A stretch of DNA of 64,000 nucleotides, taken from the NCBI RefSeq assembly GCF_006715175.1, contig NZ_VFMQ01000001.1, forward strand, positions 3,410,001 to 3,474,000. The letters are read 5' to 3'. The translations under genes and the position numbers were made by a program. Numbering within the stretch: the stretch's first letter is position 1; each line of letters opens with the position of its first letter. This document shows, in pieces, positions 10,765 to 31,609 of the stretch. This DNA comes from Curtobacterium citreum. GTDB taxonomy: Bacteria > Actinomycetota > Actinomycetes > Actinomycetales > Microbacteriaceae. Under the pieces are notes generated by a model that saw only the letters and a list, made by a program, of their open reading frames with translations, had not been told where the DNA came from and did no database searches.

Positions 10765-12771
10765 GTGGCGGAGCAGGGCCAGGCACAGTACGGCCGCGGA
10801 GAGCCGCTCGGCGCCTCGTACCGACTCGTCGACCTGCTCGGCACGGGTGCCACCGGCGAGGTCTGGCGTGCCGAGCACACCGCCTCGGGCGAGCACGTCG
10901 CCGCGAAGCTGCTGCGCTCCGAGCTCGCCGCGGACCCGGCGATCGTCGAACGCTTCGTGCGGGAGCGCACCGTGCTGCTCGGGCTGCAGCACCCCTCGAT
11001 CGTGCGCGTCCGGGACCTCGTGGTCGAGGGCGACCGGCTCGCGATCGTCATGGACCTGGTCGACGGCGGCTCCGCGCGGGACCTGCTCCGGGCGTCCGGC
11101 ACGCTGCCGCCCCGCGACGCGCTGACCATCACGGCGGAGACGCTCGACGCCCTGGCTGCGGCACACGGGCAGGACGTCACGCACCGGGACGTGAAGCCCG
11201 ACAACGTGCTCCTCGCGACGGCGTGGACCGCGGGTGCGACGGGCGACGTCCGGGTGTCGGACTTCGGCATCGCCTCGGTCGTGGCGGACCGCGAACGCAC
11301 GACCACCGGGCTCCTCGGCACGCCGCAGTACATGGCACCGGAGTCGATCAGCCAGGGCCGCGCGGGTCCGGCGGCCGACGTGTACGGCGCCGGGGTGATG
11401 CTCTACGAGCTCCTCGCCGGCCGCACGCCCTTCGCCGGCCCCGGCACCGACTTCGCCGTCGCCTACCGACACGTCACGTCGGACCCGCCCCGCATCGACG
11501 TCCCGGACGCACTCTGGACCGCGCTCACGACGCTGCTGGCGAAGGACCCCGGCGCCCGTCCGGCCGCGGCCGACGCCGCCGCGACCCTCCGCCGGCTCGC
11601 GCGTTCGCTGGTGGACGCCCCGGCACTCGCCCCGGCGGCCGACCCGGAGTCCTTCGCCGAGGTCGAGCGGCCGGCGACCGTCGTCCGTGGTGTCCGGCCG
11701 GACACGGCGGCAGTCGAGGCCTCGGCGGTCGAGGACGTCTCCCCCGCGCCGGAGCTCGGCCCGGCTGGCTCGCAGACCGTCATCCGCCCGCTCGCCCGGC
11801 AGCCGTTGCCCGTCGTCCGCGAACCCGAGGCACCGCCGCGGAGCCCCTGGCAGCGCCCGGACTGGCTGACGAACCGGATGGCGGCGCTCGGTGCCCTCGG
11901 TGTCGTCCTCGTCGCCGTGCTCGTCGTGGGCGGGGTCGTGTGGCTCCCCGGGGCGCTGGCAGGCCGGGGCTCGTCGACGCCCGCCGCCACCGCGCAGGCG
12001 GGCAGCGCGTACCAGCAGGACCGTCCGCTGCCGACCGGGCTGACCACGACCCGCAAGGCGACGCTCGACCCGGAGCGCGGCACGGTCGCCCTGTCGATCA
12101 CCTACGCCGCGCAGTCCGTGGCGCTCCGCGGGCCCCTGCTCGAGGTGGTGCCCGGCGCCACCGCGAAGGCATCGTGCCCCGCGGTGACCTGGACCGGCGA
12201 GGGCGTCTCCGCGGCGCGCAACCAGCCGTCGCTCACCGGCGTCGGCACCGCGTGTTCCTGGGCGCTCGACGACGTCGAGGTCCCGGCCGGCCAGGACCTC
12301 ACCGTGCAGGCCAGCGTCCGGCTCGCCGGCGTCCGCGACCAGGCGGCCCTGCAGGAGTGGCTCGACGCCGCCGGCAGTGCGACCACCGCCGCAGTCACCG
12401 ATCGCGGGGTCACGGGGACCGCGTACCCGGTGCAGCGGCTGCAGGGCGTCGAGGTCCGCACGCCCGACCGCACGGTCAGCCAGACCACGCTCCCGGTGAC
12501 GTTGGTGCCGGTGTGGCCGAGCGGCGCCGACGACCTCAACCCGCTCTACCGCAGTCCGGCGACCGGGAGCCCGTCGCAGATGTTGACCGACGTCGCCGGC
12601 GGCGAGTCGGGTGTGCGGTTCGCCGACGGGTGCTCGGGGGCGCTCGCGGTGTCGTCGGACGGACTGGTCGTGACGGCGCTGTCGGTCGCGCCGTCGTGCA
12701 CGGTGCGGGCCACGGTGGGGAACTTCACGAACCTCGAGAGCGCGCCGTTCGGGATCACCACGCGGGACTGA
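10765..12771 (+). CDS. transmembrane Ser/Thr protein kinase with extracytoplasmic domain
   Basis: PknB-like kinase of 668 residues. The catalytic domain (about 15-275) has a Gly-rich loop GTGATGEV, a Lys near 48, the catalytic loop HRDVKPDN with Asp near 141, SDFGIAS, and the activation-segment TPQYMAPES. All catalytic residues look intact. A Pro-rich juxtamembrane region leads to one membrane helix (about 372-396) and then an extracytoplasmic region of about 270 residues without PASTA repeats. It lies next to an FHA-bearing FtsK ATPase, and FHA domains bind phosphothreonine, so the kinase probably controls that machine. EssB of firmicute T7SS has a related kinase-like fold plus a membrane helix. 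Confidence 0.9.
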   Translation: MAEQGQAQYGRGEPLGASYRLVDLLGTGATGEVWRAEHTASGEHVAAKLLRSELAADPAIVERFVRERTVLLGLQHPSIVRVRDLVVEGDRLAIVMDLVDGGSARDLLRASGTLPPRDALTITAETLDALAAAHGQDVTHRDVKPDNVLLATAWTAGATGDVRVSDFGIASVVADRERTTTGLLGTPQYMAPESISQGRAGPAADVYGAGVMLYELLAGRTPFAGPGTDFAVAYRHVTSDPPRIDVPDALWTALTTLLAKDPGARPAAADAAATLRRLARSLVDAPALAPAADPESFAEVERPATVVRGVRPDTAAVEASAVEDVSPAPELGPAGSQTVIRPLARQPLPVVREPEAPPRSPWQRPDWLTNRMAALGALGVVLVAVLVVGGVVWLPGALAGRGSSTPAATAQAGSAYQQDRPLPTGLTTTRKATLDPERGTVALSITYAAQSVALRGPLLEVVPGATAKASCPAVTWTGEGVSAARNQPSLTGVGTACSWALDDVEVPAGQDLTVQASVRLAGVRDQAALQEWLDAAGSATTAAVTDRGVTGTAYPVQRLQGVEVRTPDRTVSQTTLPVTLVPVWPSGADDLNPLYRSPATGSPSQMLTDVAGGESGVRFADGCSGALAVSSDGLVVTALSVAPSCTVRATVGNFTNLESAPFGITTRD

Positions 12772-12808
12772 TCCGTCGCGTCCGATCGCCCGGCGCGCCT
12801 GGCCCCTC

Positions 12809-12850
12809 GGACGGGAGGCGCGTGGCGGGCTGGCGCCGCGCCTCCCGTCC
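12809..12850. terminator. hairpin terminator, GGAGGC family, copy 1
   Basis: Arms GGACGGGAGGCGCG (12809-12822) and its exact complement (12837-12850), just after the kinase gene and before the convergent FtsK gene. One of a window-wide family of similar palindromes. Confidence 0.65.
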
Positions 12851-12868
12851 GGCGGTGGCTCCCCGGTA

Positions 12869-12908
12869 CTGGAGGCGTGCGGCGGGCTCGCACCGTGCCT
12901 CCCGTCCG
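12869..12908. terminator. hairpin terminator, GGAGGC family, copy 2
   Basis: A second palindrome directly follows the first: TGGAGGCGTGCGGCGGGC pairs imperfectly with a segment ending GTGCCTCCCGTCC. The pair looks like a tandem duplication, since both are followed by CGGCGGTGG. Confidence 0.5.
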
Positions 12909-12925
12909 GCGGTGGGACGGGTCGG

Positions 12926-15900
12926 TCAGGCGCCGGAGGACGCGGTCTGCACGAGGCGGACCGACCCGCCCGAGGCGGCGTAGCCGCGACCGGCGCTGAG
13001 CGCGACGGGTGCGCGCCGGGGCAGGGTGATGCCGAGGAGCTCGCCGTCGTAGTCGACGTCGGGCTGCAGCAGGACCCCGCAGCGGCTCTTGCGGACCTGC
13101 CGCGTCCAGTGGCTGTAGAGCGAGCGGAGGTCCACCGAGCGGCCGGCCGCGACGACGCAGAGGCCCGGTCGTTCCGATGTGAGCAGCGCCGCGATGCCCT
13201 GGTCCGCGTCCTCGAACCGTTCGGCGTCGTCGACGAGGAGCAGGACCGGCCCGCGTTCGAGGCGGAGTCCGGCGAGGAGTGCGGGCACCTCGTCCACGCC
13301 GACGGCGACGCGGTCGAGCGGGGCCTCGGCGAGGGGTGACCGACGGTCGCAGATCCCCCACACGGCGGGACGGACACCCTCGGCAGAGCGGGCGAGGTCA
13401 GCGAGGGCGAGGAGCACCGTCGACTTGCCGGACCGCGCGGGGCCGGCGACGAGGACGTGCTCGCCGTCGTAGACCTCGAGGACGGCGGTGCCGAGGTCGT
13501 CCTCCGCGATGCCGACGGGGAGGCGCCAGGGCTCGGCGTCGAACCGGGCGGGTTCGGCGAGGTCGCCCACACGGACGGCGTCCGGCAGTCGTCCGACGGC
13601 GCTGGTCTTGGTCGGCGCCTCCGGCCACGTGGCGGCGACGTCCGCGACGGCCCGGTCGAGCGGAGCGGACGGCGTCGCGACGTGGCTCTGCAGGCGCATC
13701 GTCGAGTCGATGAAGCGACCGGGCACGGGCGGCGGGACGTCCTTCGGGCGGACGCCGATCGAGGAGTAGTCGTACGGGTCCGCGAGGCGGAACAGCCACT
13801 TCTGGGTGGTGACCTCGTCCATCGCCGACGGCACCGCCTTGGCGCGGGTCGTCGAGACGGCGAACGAGATGCCGAGCGCGGGGCCTTCGGCGTAGACGCG
13901 GTGCAGTGCGTCGAGGAGCAGCTGCCCCTCGAAGTCCTGGTACTCGTCGCGGAGGGCGGCGAGGCCGTCGATGAGCACGACCGCGCGCCGACCACCGGGG
14001 GCGGCCCGTCGGCGCTCGAGGTCCGCGCGGAGGTGGCGGAGGAACCGCGCCTGTAGTTCCCCGGCGCCCGGACCGGAGCCGACGTACGCGGTGGTGTGCG
14101 GCAGCCGCGCGAGGGGCGCGAGGTCACCGGCGCCCATGTCGAGGACGAGGAGGTCGAGGTCGGCGGGGTCGTGGGTGGCGGCGAGGCGCAGGGCGAGGCT
14201 CGCGAGGGCCGTGCTCGTGCCGCTGCCGGGGATGCCCATGAGCATGAGGTTGCCCTCGTCGAGGTCCCAGCCGGCGGGGACCTGGCGCTGGTGGTCGGGG
14301 TCGTCGGCGAGGGCGACGACGACCTGCCGCTCGGGTCGGGTGGTCGCGGTGCTGATGGGCAGCGTGTCGAGGTCGACGCGGTCGCCGAGTGCCTCGGGCC
14401 AGATCGGGCGGGGCGGCGCGTACCCGGCGGCGTCGTTCGCGCGCCGGATCGCGTCGATGAGGACGTCGAGGTCGGTCTCGTCCGACGCACTCGGTGCCGG
14501 CGTGGGCATCGGCGCCGGGACCCCGAACACGTCGGTCGGGCGCGCCGTCACCGGCTGGTACTCGCGCTGGTCGCGGGCGCGGCCGGTCACCAGTGCCGTC
14601 TGCACCGGCGTGATGTCGTCCTGCCCGAGCTTCACGAAGGCGCGACCGGTCTGCTGGCGGCCGATCGCCGATGCGGCCGGGACGCCGATCACGTTCGTCG
14701 AGTCCTCGCGGCTCTGCACGCGCAGGGCGACGCGGAGGTTCGTGTTCGCCAGGATGTCCTCGCTCACGACACCGGCGGGACGCTGCGTCGCGAGCACCAT
14801 GTGCACGCCGAGCGTGCGGCCGACCGCGGCGATCGCGACGAGGGACGTGAGGACGTCCGGGAACTCCTTCGCGAGCATGGCGAACTCGTCGACCACGAAG
14901 AGCAGCCGCGGCATCGGCTCGGTCGGACCCGTGGCGAGGTAGGCGTCGAGGTTGTCGATGTCGGCCCCCGCGGTCGCGAAGACCCGCTGGCGTCGTTCGA
15001 GCTCGGCCTCGAGCGCACGGATGGCACGGTCGGCGAGCTGCTCGTCGAGGTTGCTGATGGTGCCGATCGTGTGCGGCAGCCGTTCGCACGCGGCGAAGGC
15101 GGCGCCGCCCTTGAAGTCGACGAGCAGGAAGTTCAGGCGGGTCGGGTCGTTCCGAGCGGCGAGCCCGGCGACGAACGACCGGAGGAACTCGCTCTTGCCC
15201 GAGCCCGTCGTCCCGCCGACCAGGCCGTGCGGGCCGTCGCGGACGAGGTCGATCTCGAGCACGCCACCCTCGGACGAGCCGATCGGGGTCGAGACGCCTG
15301 TCCGCGCGTCCCACGCCGCGCGGATCGCCTCGGGGCTCGACGGGTCGAGCGCGGTGTCGCCGGCCCCGCGGCGCTGGGTCACGGCGAGGAGCTCGGGCAG
15401 GCGGACGAGCGCGGGCAGCGAGGCGCCGGGCACGGTGAGCTCTGGGTCGTCGAAGTGCGCCACGGCTCGGGCGGTCCGTTCGGCGGTCTCCGTCGACAGC
15501 CCCGCGAGCACGACGTCCTCGACGCGGGTGCGGTCCTCCGGCCGGTACACGGTCGCGGCTGCGTCCGCCGCGACCGTGACGATCGTGGTGCACGCGGCGG
15601 GGAGCTGTTGCTCGTTCGTGGCGATGACGATGCCGCTGACGCGCTGCCGACGCTCCCCCGGGCGCAGTGACGCCCCTGGGACCGTCCGTCCCTGGCCGAG
15701 CAGGTTGCGCGCCGGGGCGTCACGGCCCTCGGTCAGGACCTCGGAGTCGACGACGACGAGCAGGTTCGGTGTGGGCAGCTCGTCGAGCGACTCACGCAGG
15801 CCGCGGAGGACCGCGGCGCTCTGGTCGCGCTGCGCCGACATCCAGCGCGCCCCGGTGCTGCTGCCGGCCACGCGGGTGTGCGGCAGCCAGGATGCCCAGG

Positions 15901-17206
15901 ACCAGTCCGTCTCGCGGCCGCGGTCGCAGAAGACGCCGACGGTCAGGTCCGCGGGCCCGCAGTGCACGGTCGCCTGGGCGAGCAGGCTGCGCGCGAGGGC
16001 GAGGGCGCCGTCACGGTCGCCGACGATCCCGACGACCCCGGCGTCCGACAGGTCGGTCACCACGGGCGCCGCGGTGAGCCGGCTGTCCGCGATCGCGGCC
16101 TTGGCCTCGTCCTCGAGCTTCGTGGTCGCGGCGCGCTGGTCGACCTCGGGTCGCCACGGTGCGTCACCCGTGCCGGCGTGCAGGCTGAGGAAGTCGTCGT
16201 CGTCCGAGCGGCGCTGCCAGAGCGCGGTCGTCGGCAGCGCGGCGCGGCGGACGACGGTGGCCGGATCGGGGACGAGCTCCTGCCGGCGCGCGGCCTCGAC
16301 CGCCGCCGCGGCCGTGATCTCGCCGCGGAACGTCTCGACCGCCGCGGCGAAGCGCGTCTCCTCTTCCTTGAGGTTCTTGGCGCGGCGGTGCTTCTGCTCG
16401 AACCACATGCCGATCGCCGTCACGGGGCTGAGCAGGGCGAACAGGGCGAAGCGCGCGTCACCGAGGAGCAGGACCATCGCGCCCGCGAGGACGAGCGGTG
16501 CCGCCACCGTGATCCAGCTGAACTTCGACGCGGGAGCGACGTCCTTCCGCGTCGGCGGGACGACCGTCTCGGCGTCACCGACCCGACCGGGCCGCGGCGG
16601 ACGGTTGAACGGTGCCGTCGCGGCCGGGGTGAGGTTCGGCAGCGATCCGGCCGGCGGCACGGTGGTCTCCGGCAGCTCCGGGCGGACCAGCAGCACGGCG
16701 CCGCCGACGATGACGCTCGTCGTGCGGGTGAGCAGGACGCCCTCGTCGTCGATCCGTTCGCCGCCGATGACAGTCCCGTTCGTCGAGCCGGCGTCGCGCA
16801 CCCGGACCCCGTCGCCCTCGCGCTCGACGGTGCAGTGCTCCCACGATGCGCTCTCGGTCGGCAGGACCACGTCGGCCTGCGGCGCTCGCCCAGCCACGAG
16901 CTTCCGGTTCCGCGGCACGGCGAGGACCAGGCCGGCGTCGAGCCCTCCGGCGAGGGTCACGCTCCAGCCGTCGATCGTGCGCGGGCGTTCCTGCGCCGTG
17001 CGGGCGATCCGGGAGCCCTCGAGCAGGACGAGGTCACGGAGCGGGGTGTCCGAGCTGGTGTGGTGGCCGTCGACCGCGAGCGGGGTGGCGGGGTCGAGGA
17101 CGGTGCCGGTGGTCGCGGCGACGAGCGCGCCGAGGGTGGCCGCCCCTGTCCATCCGTCGACCTCGACGGTCTCGCGTCGGTCGTCGAGCTCGATGAGCAC
17201 CCGCAT
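12926..17206 (-). CDS. FHA-FtsK/SpoIIIE T7SS-type ATPase (EssC/EccC-like)
   Basis: Membrane ATPase of 1426 residues with the layout of type VII secretion motors. Residues 1-65 form a small beta domain. An FHA domain (about 70-165) has the GR, S..H and STNGT phosphothreonine-binding motifs. Two membrane helices follow (about 228-268, WITVAAPLVLAGAMVLLLG), then three FtsK modules. P-loop 1 (near 662-672, GTTGSGKSEF) has an intact Walker B (LLFVVDEFAML). P-loop 2 (near 990, GIPGSGTSTA) lacks the lysine. P-loop 3 (near 1254, GPARSGKSTV) is intact. The start has GGAGGGG upstream. Expected to drive WXG100 or Rhs export. Confidence 0.9.
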   Translation of the reverse strand: MRVLIELDDRRETVEVDGWTGAATLGALVAATTGTVLDPATPLAVDGHHTSSDTPLRDLVLLEGSRIARTAQERPRTIDGWSVTLAGGLDAGLVLAVPRNRKLVAGRAPQADVVLPTESASWEHCTVEREGDGVRVRDAGSTNGTVIGGERIDDEGVLLTRTTSVIVGGAVLLVRPELPETTVPPAGSLPNLTPAATAPFNRPPRPGRVGDAETVVPPTRKDVAPASKFSWITVAAPLVLAGAMVLLLGDARFALFALLSPVTAIGMWFEQKHRRAKNLKEEETRFAAAVETFRGEITAAAAVEAARRQELVPDPATVVRRAALPTTALWQRRSDDDDFLSLHAGTGDAPWRPEVDQRAATTKLEDEAKAAIADSRLTAAPVVTDLSDAGVVGIVGDRDGALALARSLLAQATVHCGPADLTVGVFCDRGRETDWSWASWLPHTRVAGSSTGARWMSAQRDQSAAVLRGLRESLDELPTPNLLVVVDSEVLTEGRDAPARNLLGQGRTVPGASLRPGERRQRVSGIVIATNEQQLPAACTTIVTVAADAAATVYRPEDRTRVEDVVLAGLSTETAERTARAVAHFDDPELTVPGASLPALVRLPELLAVTQRRGAGDTALDPSSPEAIRAAWDARTGVSTPIGSSEGGVLEIDLVRDGPHGLVGGTTGSGKSEFLRSFVAGLAARNDPTRLNFLLVDFKGGAAFAACERLPHTIGTISNLDEQLADRAIRALEAELERRQRVFATAGADIDNLDAYLATGPTEPMPRLLFVVDEFAMLAKEFPDVLTSLVAIAAVGRTLGVHMVLATQRPAGVVSEDILANTNLRVALRVQSREDSTNVIGVPAASAIGRQQTGRAFVKLGQDDITPVQTALVTGRARDQREYQPVTARPTDVFGVPAPMPTPAPSASDETDLDVLIDAIRRANDAAGYAPPRPIWPEALGDRVDLDTLPISTATTRPERQVVVALADDPDHQRQVPAGWDLDEGNLMLMGIPGSGTSTALASLALRLAATHDPADLDLLVLDMGAGDLAPLARLPHTTAYVGSGPGAGELQARFLRHLRADLERRRAAPGGRRAVVLIDGLAALRDEYQDFEGQLLLDALHRVYAEGPALGISFAVSTTRAKAVPSAMDEVTTQKWLFRLADPYDYSSIGVRPKDVPPPVPGRFIDSTMRLQSHVATPSAPLDRAVADVAATWPEAPTKTSAVGRLPDAVRVGDLAEPARFDAEPWRLPVGIAEDDLGTAVLEVYDGEHVLVAGPARSGKSTVLLALADLARSAEGVRPAVWGICDRRSPLAEAPLDRVAVGVDEVPALLAGLRLERGPVLLLVDDAERFEDADQGIAALLTSERPGLCVVAAGRSVDLRSLYSHWTRQVRKSRCGVLLQPDVDYDGELLGITLPRRAPVALSAGRGYAASGGSVRLVQTASSGA

Positions 17207-17230
17207 GCCGTGCCCCTCCGTTCGTGTCGT

Positions 17231-17333
17231 CGATCAGCGCTTCGTGTGGTTCGTCAGCGGTCCGTGCGGTCGGTCAGCGCTTCGCGGTGGTGGTCAGCGC
17301 TTCGCGGTGGTGGTCAGCCCTCCGTGTCGTCGG
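17231..17333. repeat. about five 20-bp tandem repeats between two genes
   Basis: The unit is close to GGTCAGCGCTTCGCGGTGGT. Two copies (17272-17311) are exact and three others are degenerate. The array fills the space between the stop of the periplasmic-binding-like gene and the FtsK gene start and overlaps the last codons of the former. It probably arose by replication slippage. Confidence 0.7.
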
Positions 17334-18768
17334 CGAACCAGACGAGGGACGGCGATCCGCTGGCGTCCGCGGAGTCGTCCGAGGCCGCCGGTCGGAGGCC
17401 GAGGTCCTGCGCGGACGACGCGAGCACCGAGGCCGGGCTGCGCATCGCCTCCTGCGTGCGGAACACCAGATCGGGTCCGGCGAGCCCGTCACTGCCGGAG
17501 AGGTCGAGGGTCGCGAGCGCGTCGGCGACCGCGGACGGCTCGTCGCTCCGGGCCGTCCCGACCGCGCGGACCAGGGCGATGACGGCGTCGTGGCTCCGGG
17601 CGTCCGCGACGGGAGCGACGGACGAGAACGGCCGGTCGCCGGTGAGGTTCTTCGCGTCGGCGTCGTCCGCGAGGACCCGGAGACCGCCGAGGAAGGCGGA
17701 CATCGACCGACCGGTGGCGTCCGGGTGGAGGGCACGGGCGTCGTCCGTCTCGACCCCGACCGTCCGGAAGCCGCCGCTCAGGCTGCCGCCAGCCTGGGTC
17801 AGCGCGGCCGCGAAGGTCGGGCTCGTGGCGTCCGCGGTGAGGATGATCGGGGCGCTGACGTCCGCGGACTGGAGCGCCGCGACGAGGGCACCCTGTCGTG
17901 CCGCAGGGCCGCTGAGCACGACGGCGTCGGAGTCCGCGGCGACCGGGGCGTCGGCGCCGGAACCGGTCGTGGTGTCGGCGGTCTGCGCGGCGACACCCGT
18001 GCGCTCGGCGATCGTGGTCGCGAGCGCGGCCGTGTCGGCGTCGCGGACCGCGTCGACGACGTGCGCGACCTGCAGGCCGGAGGGTGCTCCGCCCCCGAGG
18101 TCGACCAGCAGCGGGGACTTCGCGGAGCCGAGTGCCGAGCGCATCGCGGACGCCGTGGAGTCCGTCGAGGGCGCCGTCGACCATGCGTCGTCCGAGCCGG
18201 CCGCGTACGGGGCGACGACCGGGATCCCGGCGGACGCCGCGGCCGCGAAGGCACCGTCCACGTGACGACCGGACGACGCGACGACGATGCCTGCGACGCC
18301 CTGCTTCGCGAGCGCCTCGACCGCGGCACGTGCGCCGTCGGTCGAACCGGCGTCGTCCTGCGCCACGAGCTGGACCGTCGTGCCACCGAGCTGCAGCCGT
18401 CGCTGGGCGACGAGGGCACCCTGCGCGGCATCGGCCCACTCGGAGCCCTCGCCGTCGCCGAGGGTCACGACGACGCCGATCTTCGTGCCGTCGGGGACGT
18501 GGGCGACCTGGACCGGCACGGGTGTGGTGGCGGCGACGGCCTCGGCCGGGGCGTCCGCAGCGGAGCGCACGGCGACGACGGCGACCACCACGGCGGCGAC
18601 CACCAGGACCGCGAGCACCACGAGGAGGACCGTCCACCGACGGCGTCGCGTCGTCCGGTCGTTCGTCGGCTGCTCGGCGCCGGACTGTTCGACGCCGGAC
18701 GGTTCGGCGGACTGCGGGTCCGGTGTCGGCTGCTGTCCCGGTGCCGGCTGCTCGGTCGTGCGGCTCAT
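17314..18768 (-). CDS. membrane-anchored type 1 periplasmic-binding-fold protein
   Basis: 484 residues. The N-terminal 45 residues are polar, Pro/Gln-rich and probably cytosolic. One membrane helix follows (about 46-68, after RRRR), then an extracytoplasmic domain (about 80-475) like branched-chain amino-acid binding proteins (KIGVVVTLGDG, GIVVASSGRHVDGAF, PVVAPYAAGSDDAW). No permease or ABC ATPase gene is nearby, so a solute-importer role is unlikely. Its start overlaps the stop of the coiled-coil lipoprotein (ATGA) and it precedes the FtsK ATPase, so it probably belongs to that machine. Ligand unknown. Confidence 0.8.
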   Translation of the reverse strand: MSRTTEQPAPGQQPTPDPQSAEPSGVEQSGAEQPTNDRTTRRRRWTVLLVVLAVLVVAAVVVAVVAVRSAADAPAEAVAATTPVPVQVAHVPDGTKIGVVVTLGDGEGSEWADAAQGALVAQRRLQLGGTTVQLVAQDDAGSTDGARAAVEALAKQGVAGIVVASSGRHVDGAFAAAASAGIPVVAPYAAGSDDAWSTAPSTDSTASAMRSALGSAKSPLLVDLGGGAPSGLQVAHVVDAVRDADTAALATTIAERTGVAAQTADTTTGSGADAPVAADSDAVVLSGPAARQGALVAALQSADVSAPIILTADATSPTFAAALTQAGGSLSGGFRTVGVETDDARALHPDATGRSMSAFLGGLRVLADDADAKNLTGDRPFSSVAPVADARSHDAVIALVRAVGTARSDEPSAVADALATLDLSGSDGLAGPDLVFRTQEAMRSPASVLASSAQDLGLRPAASDDSADASGSPSLVWFADDTEG

Positions 18769-21791: not shown

Positions 21792-21806
21792 ACAGGGGGA
21801 ACGAAC

Positions 21807-22771
21807 ATGTGGATCTCAGTCGTGTCCGTCGGCATCGCGTTCGTCGCGGCGATCGGCATCACGTGGGGCGTGACGACCGCGACGCGTCGGAGCGACAGGC
21901 GCCGTCGAGCCCGCGGCGAGAAGCTGCCGAACGAGGGTGGCGCGCTCGTCACCGTGCGCCTCCGCCGTTGGCAGTGGCTGGTGATCCGCGTCCTCGCGAT
22001 CGTGCTGCTCGTCGTCGGCGGGCTGTTGAGCGTCGTGGTGATCGGACTCGCCGCCGAGGGCGCTCCGCCCTCGATGGTCGTCGTGGCGGTGGTCTTCGCC
22101 CTCGCCGGCACCGGCGGCATCGTGCTCGCGAGCTCGATGCGGCGGACCCGGATCCTGGCGATGGAGGACCACCTGTTGGTCCGTCAGGGCCTGCGCGAGG
22201 AGCGCCGGGTCGACCTGCGCGAGATCGCCAGCCTGGCGCCGCTCGCGAACCAGTACGGCGGGGTCCAGGGGCGTTCGGCGGACGGACGACGGCTGTTCCA
22301 CGTGATGGGGCTGGCGCGGGGGTTCGTCGAGTTCGACGCGTACCTGCAGGAGCGCGTCGTGCGAAACAGCGCTCCCGCCCCGCGGCGTTCGGACCGGACA
22401 CCCTCCCGGTGCCGCCGTGGCGCGGCACCTCGGCGAGCGCCGAATGGACGAACGTCCCGCTCGGCCACGGGGGTCGCCCACGTCCGGTCGTCCGGCTGTT
22501 CGTCGGAGGCGACGTGGTCGTGCTGCACACCTCTGACGTCCGGGCGCTCGTCGACGGCCGGCAGGCGGTCGCCGAGTCCGACTCACAGCCACTCGCGTTC
22601 CTCGCAAGCCCCGCGCTCGTCGACCCGACGTCGCTCGGGGGTCGACAGGTGGCTGGTCTACCGCCGGAGAGCCTCGTCCTCCTCCGCGATGCGCAGGAGG
22701 TACCGACAGCAGTACTTCGCGACGCTGATGCCCGCACGTTCCGGAAGTGGGTCAGCGGTCTGCCGCGCTGA
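21807..22771 (+). pseudogene. membrane protein gene with a -1 frameshift near 22365
   Basis: The reading frame from ATG 21807 encodes an N-terminal membrane helix, a basic linker, two more helices (LVIRVLAIVLLVVGGLLSVV; VVVAVVFALAGTGGIVLAS) and a PH-like cytosolic part up to about FVEFDAYLQERVV. Past 22365 this frame turns into Arg/Ser-rich nonsense. The continuation with protein-like composition (from PDTLPVPPWRG to FRKWVSGLPR) lies one frame back and stops at 22771. Adding one base restores a 321-residue protein. Either a real mutation or a sequencing error; no classical slippery heptamer is seen. AGGGGGA precedes the start. Confidence 0.6.
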
Positions 22772-24224: not shown

Positions 24225-24656
24225 TCACCCTCGTGGCTCGACCTCATAGGCGTACGCCGTCGGTGACACACCGAACACTGCGGTCACCGCGCGCAAGTCC
24301 CACGACGCGGCGCCGACGGTGAACCGAACGCGATCAGCACCGGAGAGCTCTTCAGCGATCCTGTCAGCGTTGAATCGATTGACTCCGTCCTGGAGCAGGA
24401 TCTTGCCGCCTTGATCGGTCACGACGACCACTTGCGACCCCGACGCTCCGCCGCCCTTCAGGGACGCGCTCGACTCCGAACCGGTGGTGGCGCTCCGGAT
24501 CTCGCACGAGACCGACAACTGATGACCGTCGTCGTAGACCTTCACACCGAGCGGGACGACGAAGAACAACAGCACCGGGATGACGATGACGAGCAACAGG
24601 ATGGCGACAGCGACGGCGCGTTTCCGTAGCGTCACCACTGGTGTTCCGTCGGTCAT
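24225..24656 (-). CDS. single-pass membrane protein, family A copy 3
   Basis: 143 residues. One membrane helix (AVAVAILLLVIVIPVLLFFVV), the conserved VKVYDDGHQLSVSCE motif, then an extracytoplasmic beta-rich domain with VRFTVGAASWDLR. It is paralogous to the proteins at 24967 and 25425. It keeps the first Cys but has lost the second, where the copies have a CG pair. An upstream in-frame ATG at 24686 would add ten residues. Confidence 0.65.
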   Translation of the reverse strand: MTDGTPVVTLRKRAVAVAILLLVIVIPVLLFFVVPLGVKVYDDGHQLSVSCEIRSATTGSESSASLKGGGASGSQVVVVTDQGGKILLQDGVNRFNADRIAEELSGADRVRFTVGAASWDLRAVTAVFGVSPTAYAYEVEPRG

Positions 24657-24679
24657 GTCGAGAGCGTTCCTCCTTGCGC

Positions 24680-24970
24680 TCACCATGTCCGATGAACCCC
24701 GCCTGCAGGGCCGTCGCCGCCGTGCGCCGCGCCGGTGTCGAGCGTTCCGATCGCGCCCGTACGTCGTCGACTCAGCCCACCAGCCAGGACCGCCATAACC
24801 GCAACAGCTGCACCAGCCAAGAGATCCGAGCGACTCGCGATCACCGAGATCCAGAATGCCTCGACCAGGAGGGCAAGTACGAGCGCCGATAAGTAAGCCA
24901 GGAGGAGCTCTCGATCGAACGCGAGGTCGGCTTCCCGGTTCGCATTCCTGCCGCCCGTCACCCTGTTCAT
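24680..24970 (-). CDS. small membrane protein, family B copy 2 (shortened)
   Basis: 96 residues. Residues 8-70 (RNANREADLAFDRELLLAYL onwards) match family B copy 1 helix for helix, ending at the shared SRRR turn. Its C-terminus then diverges into a Gly/His-rich tail without the last two helices, so this copy is truncated or frameshifted. The ATG overlaps the stop of the preceding family A gene. Confidence 0.55.
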   Translation of the reverse strand: MNRVTGGRNANREADLAFDRELLLAYLSALVLALLVEAFWISVIASRSDLLAGAAVAVMAVLAGGLSRRRTGAIGTLDTGAAHGGDGPAGGVHRTW

Positions 24971-25428
24971 GATGCGCTCGATTGACTGAGCCGTTCCGGA
25001 TCGCGCACGAACACTGCCTGGTTGACGAGTTTCAGGGTGTCCCGCAACTCGTAGGACGCCGCGCCGACGGTGAACCTCCTGGGACCGCCCCGATCAAGAT
25101 CGCTCGTGAGCCGCTCGATGTTGTCACGAGTGACCCCCCACCGCAGCACGAGGAGCCCGCAGTCGGTCGTCTCGATGTAGATCTGCTGATTCGAGGACCC
25201 GACGCCTCGCGGCGAGTAGGAGGACGCCGTCCGACCTGCGGCCCCGACCACATCGCAGGCCACCTGCTCCTGATGCGCTGCGTCATAGGCCTTCAGCGTG
25301 ACCGGCCCGACGAACAGGAAGAGGACCGGGAGCAGCACGACGAGCACGAGCAGCCCGACAGCGACCAGCCGATTCCGCACAACGCTTTCGTCCCCCGCCT
25401 GTCGTTCTTCACTCCGCAGCAGGCTCAC
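24967..25428 (-). CDS. single-pass membrane protein, family A copy 2
   Basis: 153 residues: a polar N-terminus, one helix (LVAVGLLVLVVLLPVLFLFVG), the motif KAYDAAHQEQVACDV, a Ser/Gly linker and an extracytoplasmic domain with TTDCG and RRFTVGAASYELRD. The two Cys are conserved with copy 1 and could form a disulfide. Start and stop are coupled to both neighbours by 4-base overlaps, showing an operon. Confidence 0.65.
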   Translation of the reverse strand: MSLLRSEERQAGDESVVRNRLVAVGLLVLVVLLPVLFLFVGPVTLKAYDAAHQEQVACDVVGAAGRTASSYSPRGVGSSNQQIYIETTDCGLLVLRWGVTRDNIERLTSDLDRGGPRRFTVGAASYELRDTLKLVNQAVFVRDPERLSQSSAS

Positions 25429-25853
25429 GAGATCTTTCGGAAGCCAGTAGTCGTAACGTCTCTTCCGATCAACCTCAGCAGTTCGCGGACCGAGTACGAG
25501 CCTTGGCCCACCTCGAAGCGATAGGTCCCGCCAGCATCGAGTTGACGCGCTGTTGAACCAGCATTTTGATCTGTCACACCCTCCCTGAGAAGGAGCTTGC
25601 CGCAGTTCTTCGTCGTGATCTCGACTTCAGCCGACGAGCTGCCGAGCCCGGTTCTCGTCACACTACCGCCGCTCAGGGACCTCGCTGCCCCAACCGAGCA
25701 TTCGACTTTGATTTGGTGCTGCCCGTCGTACCAATTCAGGAACGCCGGCAAGACGAGAGCGACCAGGCCGATGATCAGCAGCACGGCGAGGGCACGGTAA
25801 AAGCGCCACTTCGCTCTCGACGGAGGGCTTGCTTTTCCCCCTTGAGCACTCAT
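25425..25853 (-). CDS. single-pass membrane protein, family A copy 1
   Basis: 142 residues, directly downstream of the rhs gene (35 bases). One helix (LAVLLIIGLVALVLPAFL), the motif NWYDGQHQIKVECSV, a Ser-rich linker, KNCGKLLL and YRFEVGQGSYSVRELL. Being the first gene after the toxin it is the best candidate for the cognate immunity protein, which would act at the membrane from the outside. Confidence 0.65.
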   Translation of the reverse strand: MSAQGGKASPPSRAKWRFYRALAVLLIIGLVALVLPAFLNWYDGQHQIKVECSVGAARSLSGGSVTRTGLGSSSAEVEITTKNCGKLLLREGVTDQNAGSTARQLDAGGTYRFEVGQGSYSVRELLRLIGRDVTTTGFRKIS

Positions 25854-25888: not shown

Positions 25889-28800
25889 CTACTCCCTCGG
25901 TCCGCGAGCGCCGCCGACGAGACCGTTCAGAGCGTCCGTGACCAGATCAGAGCCACGGTCGCCATCCGGCCGCAAGAACTCGTTCGTCAAGGACTGACCA
26001 GCTCCCACGACATGGTCGGCGGTGAACGCCGAAGCCTCATTGATGATCGACATAGCCGGGGTTGTGCCGAGGTTGGGATCTGCCGGGATCCTGAGATCGA
26101 CAGCAAGTTTCGACGCAAGCGCGCTCCCACCTGCGCCGGTAACGAGCCCACTCGTGAAAGCTTGAGCGTAGCTCCCGATGCTCTGGTCCTTACTGTTCAA
26201 GGCGTGATCCACGGTGTTCGACACTGCACCCTGGGTGCCAGCGGTCGCTGCACGCTGACCGGCCGAGCCAACAGCTGCTCTCGCTACGCTTTGAACTGTG
26301 GGATTGGTCATTTGCTGAATTCGAGGCAGAGCAGCTTGAGCAACTGACGAACCGTACTTACCGACGACTGCGCCTCCGACGCCGCCTGCAGCGCCCGCTG
26401 CACCCCCCACGATCATCTGCAGGCCGACCTTGCCCCAATCGACCTTGCCACTGTCCGGCCCCTGCTGGATGATCGAGAATCCCCCCGCAAGAAGTGCTCC
26501 GGAGCCTGCCGCGGCAGCCACGGTGACCGCGATGTTGACACCGGGAACGAGCATCAGAGCAACGCCTCCCACGATCATCGCCGTCGCCGCAATCGCTTCC
26601 TTGTGCTCGTCGAAGAATCGCTTCGCATTCGCCCACGCACCCTGGTTCGCATCCCGGTACGCCTGCAGGTCCGCATCCGTCGCCGGCCGCAGCCCGAGCG
26701 GGTCCACCGCATGCACAGGGTCGTTCCCGGCGTAGGAGTACGGGTTCGCCGCCCACGCCGCCCCGAGCACGGGCGCGAGCGGGTCGGTCGACAGGAAGCC
26801 CCGCGCCACGGGGTCGTACACCCGCGCTCCGAGCCACTCGAGTCCAGCGATCGACACGCCACCGTCCGCGGTGAGCCCGACGCCTGCGGGGAGCCCCGAA
26901 CCGCCGACCGCAGCGAGCACCGCCCACGGGTCGTCGGCAGCGGTGGCCCGCGCGCTGCGCCACCCCGCGGTCGTCCAGGCATCGTCGATCGCGACGACCC
27001 CGCCCGGCAGGTCCAGGACGCTCGTGCCGCCGAGCGAGACGATCCCCGGCACGCTCGCCGCGGAGTCCCACCACGCCTCGGCACCGCCGACGTCGGCCAG
27101 CTCGCCGAGGCCGTCCGTCCAGACGTCGACCCGACCGGTCTCGGCGTAGGCGGGGTCGCGCTCGACGACCTCGGCGAGCGTCCCGAGGTCGGACCACGCG
27201 TACTCCACCGTCGAGCCGTCGGGGTCGGTCCGCCGGATGCGTCGACCGAGCCCGTCGTAGCGGTACTCGGTACGGGCATCGTCCTGTTCGGAGGCGACGA
27301 GCTCGCCGGCGAGGTCGTACGAGAAGCGCGTCTCGACACCGCCGATCACCTGGCGGACCAGGCGGCCGGCCTCGTACTCCCAGCGTGCGTCACCGGCGGC
27401 GACGAGCTGGCCGGCGTCGTCGTAGCGGTGCTCCACCCGCCCGTCCGGGCCGTCGACGGCGGTGATGCGGCCGTCGGCGTCCCGTTCGGTGCGGGTCGTC
27501 GTGAGGCCCTCGGGCGAGGTCGCGGTGTGCGCGACGAGGACGCCGCGCTCGTACGACCACGACTGCACGAGGTCGCCGGTGACCGCCTCGACGATCCGAC
27601 CCGCGGCGTCGTGTCGGAAGGTCGCGGCTCCGAGCCCGTCGCGCTCGAGCGCGGTCGTCCGACCGACCGCGTCGCGGACCCACGTGGTCCGGCGGCCGGA
27701 CGGGTCGACCCGGGCGACCCGGTGCCCGTCGGCGTCGTACTCCCACCGGATCGCGGCCCCACCGCGACTGCGGCGGACGAGGAGCCCGCGTCGGTCGTAC
27801 TCGAGCTCGTGGTCGACGGCGCGACCAGCGCCCCGCGTGTGGTCGGTGACGACGACGGTCCGGGCGACCGGGTCACGGTCCACCTCGGTCTGCACCTGAC
27901 CGTCGACGAGCACCTGGTGCTCACGCCCCGCTGCGTCGTACGTCCAGGCGGTCGTCCGCCCGTCCGGGTCGGTCTGCTCGACCCGCCGGCCCGCCGCGTC
28001 ACGACGGACGCTGGTGCGCCGGCCGAGCGGATCGGTGACCGCGACGAGGCGGTCGGCGTCGTCGTACTCGCGCCGGGTGACGCCCCCGGCCGGGTCGGTC
28101 GTCGCGACCACCCGACCGCGCTCGTCGTACTCGTGGCGGGTGATCCCGCCGAGCCCGTCGACCACCTCGGTGACCTGCCCCGCGACGTCGTAGCGGAACC
28201 GACGCCGACCGAAGCGTGCGTCGTGGGCCGAGACGAGCCTCCCGGCCGTGTCCCAACGGAACCGGCTCGTCCCCGCTCCGGGTGTCGTCTGCTCGACCAC
28301 GCGCCCCACCGGGTCGTACGCGGTCCGGGCGACCTCGCCGGTGGGGAGTGTCCGCGCGACGACCCGGGAGTCGGCGTCGTAGGTCAGCGTGGTGCGCGCA
28401 CCGGTGGCGTCCACGGCGGCCGACGGCCGCCCGCAGGCGTCGTACTCGTACGACGTGCGCGCGCCGGACGGCGCGATGACCGCGGTGACGCGGCCAGCGA
28501 GGTCACGCTCGATCCGCGTCAGCCCACCTTCTCCGTCGACGAGCTCCACCGGGCGTCCGGCCGCGTCGTAGGTGACGAGTTCGGATCCGGCGCCCGGACT
28601 GGTCGACTCGACGGGGCGCCCGAACGCGTCGAAGCGCACGGTCGTCGTCGAGAACGCGTCGCGCAGCGTCGCGACACCGGCGGTGGGGTCCCGGCTCACG
28701 TCCTGACGGACGCCCGTCGGGTCGACGGTCGCGGTCAGGACGCCGTTCGCGTCGTACTCGTGGCGCCACGTCGCGCCCGTCGGGTCGGTGACGGCCTGGA

Positions 28801-31198
28801 GGCGCGACAACGCGTCGTGCGCGAACGTCCAGACCGCGTCACCCGGCACGGCGAGCGTCGCCAGGTTGCCCTGGTCGTCGAAGGAGCGGACGACCCGGCG
28901 ACCGAGCGGGTCCGTGGTCGCGTGGAGCTCGCCGTCGGGGCCGTACCCGAACGCGGTCCGCCCGCCGAGGGGATCGGTGATCGCCGAGATGCGTCCACCG
29001 GTGGTGTGCTCGAAGCGCCAGACCGCGCCGTCCGGGTCACGGCGCTCGACCAGCAGGCCGGCGGCGTCGTGGCGGTACTCGGTGCGGGCCCCCGACGGGC
29101 TGGTCGCCACGGCCGGACGCCCGGCGGCGTCGCGGTCGATGCGGGCCGTGTCGCCGAGGGCGTTCGTGGTGGCGACGAGTTCGCCGTGCTCGTCGCGCTC
29201 GAGGACGAGGACCACGCCGGTCGGGTCGACCACCCGCGTCAGCACGCCGTCCGACCAGGTCAGCTCGGTGCGGCCCCCGACGGGGTCCGTGATGACGGAC
29301 GGGTCCCGGTCGTCGCCGCGGTACTCGAACGTGACGACGCCGCCGGACTCGGCGACGACGGTCGTGGTCCGGTCCTGGTCGTCGTAGCCGTACGTGAGGT
29401 CGCCGCCGGTCGGGGTGACCGTCCGGGTCCGACGCCCACGCTCGTCGTAGGCGTGGACGGTGACCGACCCGTCGCGCTCGGTGACGGAGACGAGGTTCCC
29501 GTGCCGGTCGTAGCTCATCGACTGCCGGTGGTCGTCGGAGTCGACCACACCGACGAGCCGACCCCTGGTGTCCGCGATGTAGGAGTTCGACCGCGAGCCG
29601 TCGTGGTCGGAGACGACGGTCACCCGACCGGGCAGGTAGGCGAAGCGGACGGCGCGACCGTGCGGGCTCACCTGCTCGACGACGCGGCGGCGCTCGTCGT
29701 AGGTGTTCTCGACCTCGACGACCCCGGCGGCACTCGTGACGGTGAGCACGAGGTCGTGGTCGTCCCACCCGTAGCGGCGTGTGCCCACCGCGTCGGTGAC
29801 CGCGACGAGTCGCCCGCGGTCGTCGTACGAGTACTCGACCCGGCGCCCGTCGGAGCTCCGCGCCACGGCGACTCGGCCAGCCAGGTACTCGACGTCGATC
29901 GACCGTCCGCGGTCGTGGACGAGTCGGTTGATGAGCCCGTCGGCGTCCCGCTCGACCCGGACGCCGGTCCCGGGACCGCCGCGCTCGCCCAGCCAGACGC
30001 CCGACGGCGTGAAGTCGATCCGCCCGCCACGGTTGTCGCGGACCACGAGCTGGTCGCCCTCTGCCACGAGCCACCGGTTCTCACCGACGCCGCGCTCCCA
30101 GCCGTCGGAGGCCCGCGGGAACCGGATCTGCCGCCCGTCCGCGCCGACGAAGGACGCCCCCTCGTCGTCGAGTTCGACTCGGGTCTCGAGGACCGAGGCC
30201 CAACCGGGGCCGAAGAGCCCGACGTGCTCGTCGAGCGAGTTGTACATGCGGGTGAGGGCGAGCGACGCGCTCGCGCCGGTGAAGCCGAGGTCGGTCTCCG
30301 GTTCGACGAAGTTCCCGGTCGTCGTGTTCACCGGATCCATCGAGTACCCGGTGGTCGGCTGGGCGCCGTAGGCGGAGGGCGGGTCGAACTGCACGTCGGA
30401 CCGGGTCGCCGAGACGCCCGCCGCCTGCAGCGCTGCGGCGAGCGCCGAGTCCGCGACGCTCGACACCGCGCCTTCGCCACCGGCAGCGGCGAAGGCGTCG
30501 GCGATCGTGGTGGCCCACGTCACGTCCTGGCCGTTCGCCTGCAACCACTGGTCGAACGCGCTGACGAGCCCGGTGGCGTCGATCCGCCCCCAGGAGCAGC
30601 GGTCCGCGAAGTCGGCGAGCTTGCCGCGGAGCATCGCGGGCTTGCCCTCGAGGGCCTGGTCGAGTCCCCGGCTGCCGTCGGCGAACGAGCGGAGGTCGGC
30701 CGGTCGGGCGGAGGACGTGCCCCCGCCACCACCGCCACCGGAGCCGGGCGACGGGGTCTGTCGCGGGGTCGCGGGGCCGGTCGCGTCGGCGAACCGGGGC
30801 GGGTCCTCGTGGTGGACCTCCGGCGGCTGGTCGTTGCCGGTGACCCAGTCCGCGACGACCTCGCCGACCCAGCGGTTCTCGTGGTGCTCGTACCAGTCGC
30901 GGGCGGTCTTGCGTCGGGCGTTCTCGCGCTCGGCGGCGGCCTGCATCTTGCCGACCCAGCCGGCCACGGTGCGCAGGTTCGCGGCGATGGCGGAGCCGTC
31001 GCTCCTGGCGGTCTGGGCGTTCGCGGCGAAGAGCTCGGAGAAGTGGCCGCGGAACTCCTGGGCGGCGGTGCTGACGTACGACTGGCGGCTGCCGGCCTGC
31101 CCCTCGATCGACTCCGCCGCGCCGTTCAGCGCCTGACTCAGCGCGTCGGCCGTGCCGTTGTCGAACTCGACCGGTTCGTTGCCGTGCAGGTCGCCCAT
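25889..31198 (-). CDS. Rhs/YD-repeat polymorphic toxin with WXG100-like N-terminus
   Basis: 1769 residues. Residues 1-110 form a helical hairpin like WXG100/LXG export domains, with EFRGHFSELF in place of WxG. A Gly-rich linker (near 150) and an alpha region follow. Near 288 comes the DUF6531 entry motif DPVNTTTGNF. YD repeats fill about 330-1440, for example RYDGLGRRIRR. The core closes with GFLSTDPLAP and DPLGLRP (about 1499-1505), the usual boundary to the variable tip. The last 265 residues contain a glycine-rich hydrophobic stretch (ATAMIVGGVALMLVPGVNI onwards) and no nuclease, deaminase or ADP-ribosylation motif that I recognise. A membrane-active tip fits the membrane-type neighbours. 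Start ATG at 31198. Confidence 0.9.
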   Translation of the reverse strand: MGDLHGNEPVEFDNGTADALSQALNGAAESIEGQAGSRQSYVSTAAQEFRGHFSELFAANAQTARSDGSAIAANLRTVAGWVGKMQAAAERENARRKTARDWYEHHENRWVGEVVADWVTGNDQPPEVHHEDPPRFADATGPATPRQTPSPGSGGGGGGGTSSARPADLRSFADGSRGLDQALEGKPAMLRGKLADFADRCSWGRIDATGLVSAFDQWLQANGQDVTWATTIADAFAAAGGEGAVSSVADSALAAALQAAGVSATRSDVQFDPPSAYGAQPTTGYSMDPVNTTTGNFVEPETDLGFTGASASLALTRMYNSLDEHVGLFGPGWASVLETRVELDDEGASFVGADGRQIRFPRASDGWERGVGENRWLVAEGDQLVVRDNRGGRIDFTPSGVWLGERGGPGTGVRVERDADGLINRLVHDRGRSIDVEYLAGRVAVARSSDGRRVEYSYDDRGRLVAVTDAVGTRRYGWDDHDLVLTVTSAAGVVEVENTYDERRRVVEQVSPHGRAVRFAYLPGRVTVVSDHDGSRSNSYIADTRGRLVGVVDSDDHRQSMSYDRHGNLVSVTERDGSVTVHAYDERGRRTRTVTPTGGDLTYGYDDQDRTTTVVAESGGVVTFEYRGDDRDPSVITDPVGGRTELTWSDGVLTRVVDPTGVVLVLERDEHGELVATTNALGDTARIDRDAAGRPAVATSPSGARTEYRHDAAGLLVERRDPDGAVWRFEHTTGGRISAITDPLGGRTAFGYGPDGELHATTDPLGRRVVRSFDDQGNLATLAVPGDAVWTFAHDALSRLQAVTDPTGATWRHEYDANGVLTATVDPTGVRQDVSRDPTAGVATLRDAFSTTTVRFDAFGRPVESTSPGAGSELVTYDAAGRPVELVDGEGGLTRIERDLAGRVTAVIAPSGARTSYEYDACGRPSAAVDATGARTTLTYDADSRVVARTLPTGEVARTAYDPVGRVVEQTTPGAGTSRFRWDTAGRLVSAHDARFGRRRFRYDVAGQVTEVVDGLGGITRHEYDERGRVVATTDPAGGVTRREYDDADRLVAVTDPLGRRTSVRRDAAGRRVEQTDPDGRTTAWTYDAAGREHQVLVDGQVQTEVDRDPVARTVVVTDHTRGAGRAVDHELEYDRRGLLVRRSRGGAAIRWEYDADGHRVARVDPSGRRTTWVRDAVGRTTALERDGLGAATFRHDAAGRIVEAVTGDLVQSWSYERGVLVAHTATSPEGLTTTRTERDADGRITAVDGPDGRVEHRYDDAGQLVAAGDARWEYEAGRLVRQVIGGVETRFSYDLAGELVASEQDDARTEYRYDGLGRRIRRTDPDGSTVEYAWSDLGTLAEVVERDPAYAETGRVDVWTDGLGELADVGGAEAWWDSAASVPGIVSLGGTSVLDLPGGVVAIDDAWTTAGWRSARATAADDPWAVLAAVGGSGLPAGVGLTADGGVSIAGLEWLGARVYDPVARGFLSTDPLAPVLGAAWAANPYSYAGNDPVHAVDPLGLRPATDADLQAYRDANQGAWANAKRFFDEHKEAIAATAMIVGGVALMLVPGVNIAVTVAAAAGSGALLAGGFSIIQQGPDSGKVDWGKVGLQMIVGGAAGAAGGVGGAVVGKYGSSVAQAALPRIQQMTNPTVQSVARAAVGSAGQRAATAGTQGAVSNTVDHALNSKDQSIGSYAQAFTSGLVTGAGGSALASKLAVDLRIPADPNLGTTPAMSIINEASAFTADHVVGAGQSLTNEFLRPDGDRGSDLVTDALNGLVGGARGPRE

Positions 31199-31283
31199 GA
31201 TCCGTCCCCCGATGGTGATCGTGCTGGTCGTGCTGTGCTGGTGGAGCAGATCGAGCTCCGTCCGCGGCCCACCCCGGACCGCG

Positions 31284-31318
31284 GACGCCCGGTCCGCCGA
31301 GGTGGCGGACCGGGCGTC
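31284..31318 (-). terminator. hairpin between the WXG100 and rhs genes
   Basis: A perfect 15-bp stem (31284-31298 with 31304-31318) and a GAGGT loop, 9 bases after the WXG100 stop. It probably ends most transcripts after the WXG100 gene, so the rhs gene is made at a lower level or from its own promoter. Confidence 0.7.
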
Positions 31319-31327
31319 GGGTGGTGG

Positions 31328-31609
31328 CTACGCGCCGCCGCCCGCGGTGAAGATGTCCTGCGAGATCTTGTCGAGCTGGGTGCGGAGCTGCTCGAGCTCG
31401 GTCTTGGCCTTGTCCAGCGCCGCCTTCGTCTCGGGCCAGGTCGAACCGCGGAACGTCGAGGCGAGCGGGCCGTCCCAGACGTTCGAGTCCGACAGGATGC
31501 GGCCCTGGGCGTCGAGCTGCGAGATCTGGTCGGTGAACCCACCGTTCACGATCGACTGGATCTGGCGGATGGCGGACTTGGCCTGCTCGGTGGAGAGCAC
31601 ACGCGACAT
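31328..31609 (-). CDS. WXG100 (ESAT-6-like) protein
   Basis: 93 residues, the standard size of a WXG100 T7SS substrate or chaperone. A helical hairpin with W45-D46-G47 in the turn (NVWDGPLASTF), flanked by helices rich in Gln/Ala/Lys. The C-terminus after KISQDIFTAGG has no clear YxxxD/E export signal; such proteins can export as dimers with a partner that has one. I chose the ATG at 31609 because AGAGG lies six bases upstream. Upstream of, and in the same direction as, the rhs gene. Confidence 0.85.
   Translation of the reverse strand: MSRVLSTEQAKSAIRQIQSIVNGGFTDQISQLDAQGRILSDSNVWDGPLASTFRGSTWPETKAALDKAKTELEQLRTQLDKISQDIFTAGGGA

Follow-up and report, generated by a model that had tools for sequence, protein, structure and literature searches.

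Does the island of Curtobacterium citreum that carries an FHA-bearing FtsK-type ATPase next to a receptor kinase encode a type VII secretion system (T7SS) and, if so, one of the subtypes already described? The DNA analysed, referred to here as the window, is a stretch of 64,000 nucleotides (positions 3410001-3474000 of a genome of one contig, 3.61 Mb). The parts considered are a membrane Ser/Thr kinase (KIN), an EccC/EssC-like membrane ATPase (ATP), a protein of the periplasmic-binding fold (PBP), a coiled-coil lipoprotein (LIP), a small WXG protein and an Rhs protein; all of them had been named in an initial annotation of the window and are confirmed in the sequence. We consider it likely that the island as a whole represents a distinct new T7SS subtype, which would export the WXG and Rhs proteins and be switched by the kinase. 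The secretion machine is the surer part of this proposal and its switching by the kinase the less sure.

The relationship of ATP to the T7SS motors is extensive. It scores 460 bits against the NCBIfam model of EssC (cut-off 778.4), 367.1 against EccCa (509.15) and 252.8 against EccCb (346.55), which leaves it below every curated subtype cut-off despite matches over most of its length. Profile comparison with the PDB identifies 4nh0 (2e-115) and YukB (9qks, 1.6e-94), and by these long matches ATP falls in the EccC/EssC family of membrane ATPases that marks a T7SS in general. Three P-loop motifs are present, GTTGSGKS at residue 665, a degenerate GIPGSGTS at 991 and GPARSGKS at 1255. Across 14 aligned ATPases the FHA residues R107, S121 and N143 never vary and T142 hardly does; we take these residues to be involved in phospho-Thr binding.

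An anti-phage or DNA-handling island, with its FtsK-type ATPase and kinase serving something other than secretion, has also been considered, as PADLOC relates KIN to PD-T4-6 kinases, ATP to mad8 and SspH and LIP weakly to ZorA (4.5e-5). These matches lie in kinase, P-loop and coiled-coil stretches of a common kind, neither PBP nor Rhs has any, and ATP fits the EccC/EssC models far better. The WXG and Rhs genes, moreover, recur beside the motor. The anti-phage assignment was rejected on the generic nature of the PADLOC matches and the far stronger EccC/EssC ones, and a function of this kind appears very improbable.

A profile (A9) built from ATP residues 1-80 in alignment with those of twelve related ATPases has a redesigned ubiquitin as its top PDB row (E 2.3e-4), the sole row below 0.001, and about 24 of the 32 rows listed (E up to 5) bear names of ubiquitin-like proteins. 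Since this region matches mainly ubiquitin-like proteins of the PDB, the motor probably has the layout ubiquitin-like domain, FHA domain, transmembrane (TM) region and FtsK stretches. The A9 model matches 23 of the 44 ATPases left out of its building at E < 1e-3, with E-values computed for 57 sequences only. A Pfam scan of the N-terminus gave no ubiquitin-like match in the window ATP or in seven relatives, and weak rows of ubiquitin-like families were obtained for the relatives in loci L110 and L190. A separate ubiquitin-like protein was not seen at the window locus, where a fused one is probable.

Is the gene set a unit? In a sample of 60 Curtobacterium genomes LIP is encoded in 32, and the ATP orthologue (at least 83% identity) and the KIN ectodomain are found in the identical 32. 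Loci of 31 of these were read for synteny, the exception being G171 with a contig of 9650 bases, and it is in these 31 loci, rather than by a search genome by genome, that PBP was seen. The order KIN-ATP-PBP-LIP and the strands are the same in all 31, with KIN cut by the contig end in L049. Two equal sets of 32 in 60 have a nominal chance value of 1e-17, which disregards kinship and is given no weight here; the gene set is regarded as beyond chance because order and strands are equal in 31 of 31 loci and because the set recurs in other genera. Among the 28 genomes that lack the locus, 15 were read at the flanks, and in 14 of them the flanking genes lie 26-111 bases apart, which shows that the island is present or absent as a block. 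One flank is a gene for a GNAT acetyltransferase and the other presumably a polyphosphate-kinase-like gene.

A scan of a collection with one genome per species, using two peptide patterns, has identified 30 loci, in records titled Curtobacterium (21), Frigoribacterium (4) and, with one each, Frondihabitans, Klugiella, Xylanimonas, a further member of Microbacteriaceae and a metagenome-assembled genome (MAG) of Micrococcaceae. All nine loci not titled Curtobacterium have LIP, PBP and ATP together, and KIN adjoins them in seven, WXG is found in seven and Rhs in seven; the flanking genes vary from genus to genus. The stretch available for locus L094 starts near LIP. Protein searches, considered for the top 120 among 163 and among 185 matches, place LIP also in Arthrobacter, Paeniglutamicibacter, Microbacterium and Rathayibacter, and PBP also in Leucobacter and Brooklawnia; the matches of highest identity are both from Curtobacterium sp. 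C1 (LIP 94%, PBP 96%). The system is patchy, LIP having matches in 5 of 150 genomes of the family (three strong) and 6 of 396 of the order (one weak). The neighbourhood is conserved in the genus and recurs with other flanks elsewhere, and the scattering of kinase, lipoprotein and binding-fold genes independently of the ATPase and WXG genes, which the initial annotation had set against its own proposal, did not appear, as KIN, ATP and LIP share the same 32 genomes. Its proposal of a coherent and distinct actinobacterial T7SS-like system is upheld by the block in 32 of 60 genomes and the synteny in 31 of 31 loci. The word reduced, which it had also offered, fits poorly a locus with its own set of envelope parts.

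More distant forms suggest that the set may have been combined with different motors. Locus L108 (48% GC) encodes WXG, LIP, PBP, ATP, KIN and Rhs; its PBP, like that of L016, was missed by the gene caller and identified by BLAST and profiles. L109 and L110 encode KIN, PBP and LIP with an ATPase 29% identical to that of the window, and in L111 only LIP and PBP were seen. The identities of the window proteins to those of L108, L109 and L110 are 46, 29 and 29% for ATP, 37, 40 and 36% for KIN, 26, 37 and 34% for PBP and 26, 23 and 21% for LIP. A quickly built ATPase tree (57 rows) divides the LIP-PBP loci between two separate clades, so that two changes are needed. In a kinase tree of 28 rows with several long branches, the 18 kinases of LIP loci lie on one side of a 100/98 branch. 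A simple reading would be that a KIN-PBP-LIP unit has been paired with two T7SS motors.

The split over two ATPase clades would also agree with KIN-PBP-LIP being an independent envelope-sensing unit that merely neighbours a small T7SS made up of ATP, WXG and Rhs. The loci L174 and L190, which encode outer relatives of ATP, would fit this as well, since in each of them a W-D-G protein lies close by and the stretch gave no match to LIP, PBP or KIN. Both ATPase clades are, on the other hand, T7SS motors, and the co-occurrence of KIN, ATP and LIP is exact in the genus. No LIP was found in the 40 other EssC-like ATPase loci read (36 from best matches and four from the genus, in stretches of at most 20 kb that in some cases stop at a contig end), where PBP gave one match of 17 bits and the KIN model matched in nine. 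Since the kinases of LIP loci form one clade, the unit seems to have remained associated with motors of the T7SS kind, and its being a mere neighbour is improbable. The W-D-G proteins of L174 (13622-13900) and L190 (7270-7557) resemble the WXG protein, and their gene sets are possibly a simpler ancestral kit.

KIN comprises a cytoplasmic kinase domain (residues 19-271), a variable linker, a TM stretch (367-401) and an ectodomain, and from its intact kinase motifs it is best read as a predicted active receptor kinase. The linker is less conserved than the kinase domain (mean 0.64 vs 0.85 over 15 aligned rows) with the exception of two motifs, which read P-A-T-V-V-R-G and T-V-I-R in the window protein. 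Two T-V-x-R motifs are present in all 39 distinct kinases; the pattern T[VI][VIL][RK] is matched twice in 36 of them and the remaining three carry T-V-V-R and T-V-F-R. Klugiella and L108 have T-V-L-R twice and T-V-[LM]-K. Two matches arise in 2 of 20000 shuffles of the window linker, and of ten kinases from the vicinity of other T7SS ATPases three carry one motif and none carries two.

Of the two envelope proteins, PBP has its TM stretch at residues 42-75 and is related by profile to the HAAT/Leu-binding family of type I periplasmic-binding proteins; no ABC transporter lies beside it. The genes of PBP and LIP share 4 bases in each of the 32 loci listed, which include one from Frigoribacterium, and the gap between PBP and ATP ranges from 6 to 167 bases. 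LIP, PBP and ATP are read as an apparent single minus-strand operon, with KIN convergent with ATP. The lipobox Cys39 of LIP is at least 90% conserved in 58 rows, and the only hydrophobic stretch is N-terminal, a C-terminal TM segment being absent. In the structure model (mean pLDDT, the predicted local distance difference test, 73.5; pTM, the predicted template modelling score, 0.40) a beta base of residues 51-238 and 918-927 is confident and is followed by long helices, the longest, 677-837, having a low-confidence end. As both chain ends meet at the base, the helices would extend as a hairpin.

NCBIfam includes models of EssB, EsaA and EccB, and none of these is matched by LIP, PBP or KIN; LIP has no NCBIfam match at all, and the 15 matches of KIN include no EssB model. 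The fold-search listings obtained with the LIP model (mean pLDDT 73.5) and with the model of the KIN ectodomain (mean pLDDT 57.5) contain neither EsaA nor EssB.

The naming of the WXG protein is based on its size of 93 residues, the W-D-G motif, its homologues and its co-occurrence with the core. Intact copies of the genus are 96-100% identical, those of other named loci 88-100%, and that of L108, from another family, 77%. It is encoded in 33 of the 60 genus genomes, namely the 32 core carriers and G177, and G194 has only pieces at contig ends. In G177 (L120), Rhs and WXG lie between the flanking genes without KIN, ATP, PBP and LIP. The Klugiella genome (G019) encodes four identical-scoring WXG copies at four places, on contigs C1 and C2.

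Compared with 16 other Rhs proteins, the window Rhs has an identity of about 0.6-0.85 over residues 121-1500 and of about 0.2-0.3 after residue 1620. The variable C-termini are adjoined by varying small membrane proteins, which fits putative polymorphic toxin/immunity pairs. A domain search recognised no toxin domain in Rhs, and the small proteins B3 and B2 have no Pfam match. B1, B2 and B3 form one family of single-TM proteins placed between LIP and Rhs. An Rhs match was found in 23 of the 31 genus loci, and five of the other eight stretches stop before the flank.

Which of the known systems is nearest? It is T7SSd, described from Olsenella and Bifidobacterium (Garrett, Higginson and Palmer 2024, PMC11217815), as far as the main text of that paper describes it. 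T7SSd is likewise actinobacterial, with an FHA-bearing EssC-like ATPase, a membrane kinase, a WXG100 protein and Rhs nearby; the island shares with it the conserved putative phospho-Thr residues of the FHA domain of ATP and the membrane Ser/Thr kinase. The island could accordingly be a divergent T7SSd member whose TsdH and TsdI were exchanged for PBP and LIP or evolved into them. Besides the common core kit, the kinase tree speaks for this, since its nearest outside row (99/97, on a long branch) is the kinase of L183, a locus with a T7SSd-like look (7855-19811: FHA-type ATPase, small WXG-like proteins, membrane kinase and a secreted protein of 1049 residues). The envelope parts speak against it. 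TsdI, by its description in that main text, is large and secreted, with immunoglobulin-like domains and a C-terminal TM segment, whereas LIP has a lipobox, consists mostly of long helices and lacks such a segment; the LIP profile meets the 1049-residue protein of L183 at E 0.18. TsdH, small with a single TM segment, has no conserved counterpart within the KIN-ATP-PBP-LIP block, to which the search was confined. The host range, genera of Micrococcales type, is unlike that of T7SSd as described there. The probable ubiquitin-like domain of the motor may be a further difference; according to the same main text this part is a separate EsaB in T7SSb, lies within EccD in ESX and is lacking in T7SSd. 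A divergent T7SSd is hence unlikely in our view, and a subtype distinct from T7SSa to T7SSj, as PMC11217815 describes them, is the best reading.

T7SSb also has an EssC-like motor with FHA, a membrane protein of kinase fold, a large outside coiled-coil protein, and Rhs and immunity-like genes. ATP is below the EssC equivalog cut-off, as its score given above indicates, and its phospho-Thr residues are kept whereas those of T7SSb are lost in the accounts given by PMC11217815 and PMC9600267. EssB is a pseudokinase as described in PMC9600267, and in Bacillus it binds the FHA region of the motor, apparently without phosphorylation (PMC9600267, PMC11217815). KIN has intact motifs, and its placement by the initial annotation in the position of EssB holds as an analogy only. 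The same applies to LIP in the position of EsaA, which it resembles in idea.

T7SSa/ESX shares the motor family and a WXG-type partner, and differs in that ATP is under the EccC cut-offs and has an FHA domain. NCBIfam scans of eight locus proteins and Pfam scans of fourteen gave no match to EccB, EccD, EccE or mycosin. A complete ESX elsewhere that owned the ATPase, as the initial annotation had allowed for, was not encountered: the only other T7SS-type ATPase locus of the genome, likewise FHA/EssC-like (L015, at about 1.385 Mb, 1378000-1397000), has its own ATPase (L015 6487-10956), and the seven of its proteins that were scanned gave no match to EccB, EccD, EccE or mycosin. L015 also encodes a WXG100 protein (50.8 bits), a T7SS_signal-like helical protein and an alpha/beta-hydrolase-like protein. 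A type VI secretion system (T6SS) under threonine-phosphorylation control, as cited in PMC11217815, resembles the island as proposed here in that a membrane kinase and an FHA partner control a secretion machine; the machine is unrelated, and in the island the FHA domain belongs to the motor. The open literature searched yielded no description of this gene set, which is not a claim of its absence from print, and the terms 'lipoprotein', 'periplasmic binding', 'Curtobacterium' and 'Microbacter' have 0 occurrences in the main text of PMC11217815.

In the proposed T7SS subtype, ATP would serve as the motor and the WXG protein as the small secreted partner, with Rhs as a polymorphic toxin-like substrate against which the small membrane proteins would provide putative immunity. 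LIP, lipid-anchored outside with its coiled-coil hairpin outward, may form a wall-spanning part or a contact arm, and PBP, outside on its TM anchor, a ligand sensor or a structural part. The KIN ectodomain, alone or together with PBP and LIP, would read an outside signal, and this would lead to putative phosphorylation of both T-V-x-R motifs of the linker, on which the FHA domain of ATP would dock. That the motor docks on the kinase once this is phosphorylated is the most parsimonious idea that the sequences offer, and the putatively assembled machine would then export WXG and Rhs. The gene set, its co-occurrence and synteny, the domain content and the conserved motifs are observed, and export, assembly, phosphorylation, docking and immunity are inferred. 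More tentatively, and with somewhat less than even confidence, we suggest that KIN-PBP-LIP is a portable unit that reads an outside signal or contact and switches a motor with a built-in EsaB-like ubiquitin domain, two motors having been used.

Several observations weigh against this proposal. The ubiquitin-like assignment hangs on a single E-value, 2.3e-4. One control kinase, that of L178, has a motif closely resembling those of the linker, and the motifs are looser in the kinases of L109 and L110. The structure model of the KIN ectodomain is poor (mean pLDDT 57.5). The kinase of Klugiella is not beside ATP and lies about 14 kb beyond LIP in the same region, and no KIN, WXG or Rhs was seen within the stretch of the Micrococcaceae MAG locus L105. 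The WXG protein scores below the cut-offs of Pfam (15.7 vs 27.3 bits) and NCBIfam (18.5 vs 44.85) and is not among the matches of a Pfam search of its own genome; its naming is based on size, motif and homologues and not on these models. In G156, G168, G173, G183 and G198 the sole intact WXG gene lies over 2 Mb away from the core or on a different contig, and L070, L074 and L075 reach the flank without a full Rhs.

If the proposal is true, a new T7SS subtype from actinobacteria outside mycobacteria is added to a small known family. It would bring in LIP and PBP families that are mentioned for no T7SS in the main text of PMC11217815, and the motor itself is suggested as the home of the ubiquitin-like part in a system without separate EsaB. 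Whether kinases and FHA domains control T7SS, an open question, becomes testable on two residues and a single domain. For the study of cargo choice, the highly conserved WXG protein and its polymorphic Rhs partners provide a natural case.

Features of the island, in window coordinates
Feature	Position	Strand	Basis or remark
KIN, receptor Ser/Thr kinase	10765-12771	+	Pfam Pkinase 1.5e-49; HRDVKPDN, DFG and APE motifs; one TM stretch
First linker motif of KIN, T-V-V-R (T305)	11677-11688	+	invariant in 15/15 aligned kinases
Second linker motif of KIN, T-V-I-R (T338)	11776-11787	+	invariant in 15/15 aligned kinases
ATP, EccC/EssC-like membrane ATPase	12926-17206	-	one FHA domain, three FtsK_SpoIIIE stretches, TM region
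FHA domain, ATP residues ~88-172	16691-16945	-	Pfam FHA 1.6e-11
Probable ubiquitin-like domain, ATP residues 1-80	16967-17206	-	profile A9 against PDB, best E 2.3e-4
PBP, type I periplasmic-binding-fold protein, N-terminal TM anchor	17314-18768	-	4obb and 4nqr, E 1e-7
LIP, coiled-coil lipoprotein	18765-21560	-	lipobox LAGC (Cys39); start codon uncertain
B3, small single-TM protein, immunity candidate	24225-24686	-	varying number of related copies beside Rhs
B2, small single-TM protein, immunity candidate	24967-25428	-	varying number of related copies beside Rhs
B1, small single-TM protein, immunity candidate	25425-25853	-	relatives beside Rhs in non-Curtobacterium loci
Rhs protein, polymorphic toxin-like candidate substrate	25889-31198	-	RHS_repeat 1.2e-117; 27 RHS stretches
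WXG protein, 93 residues, W-D-G motif	31328-31609	-	size, motif, homologues

No promoters were found, and between 10600 and 25800 two terminator-like sites were observed vs 2.3 expected. At 21804-22771 (+) the window has a membrane-protein gene, apparently split over two frames, which in 19 related loci encodes 193-329 residues. In the Frondihabitans locus L107, LIP, ATP and Rhs are each represented by two overlapping frames, as is LIP in L105; these are either real breaks or sequencing errors. G159, G161, G163 and other genomes of the genus encode further, different EssC-like ATPases at 30-37% identity. The EssC model matches 72 of 396 genomes of the phylum at E < 1e-40 and only two exceed its cut-off; the actinobacterial T7SS motors look under-classified.

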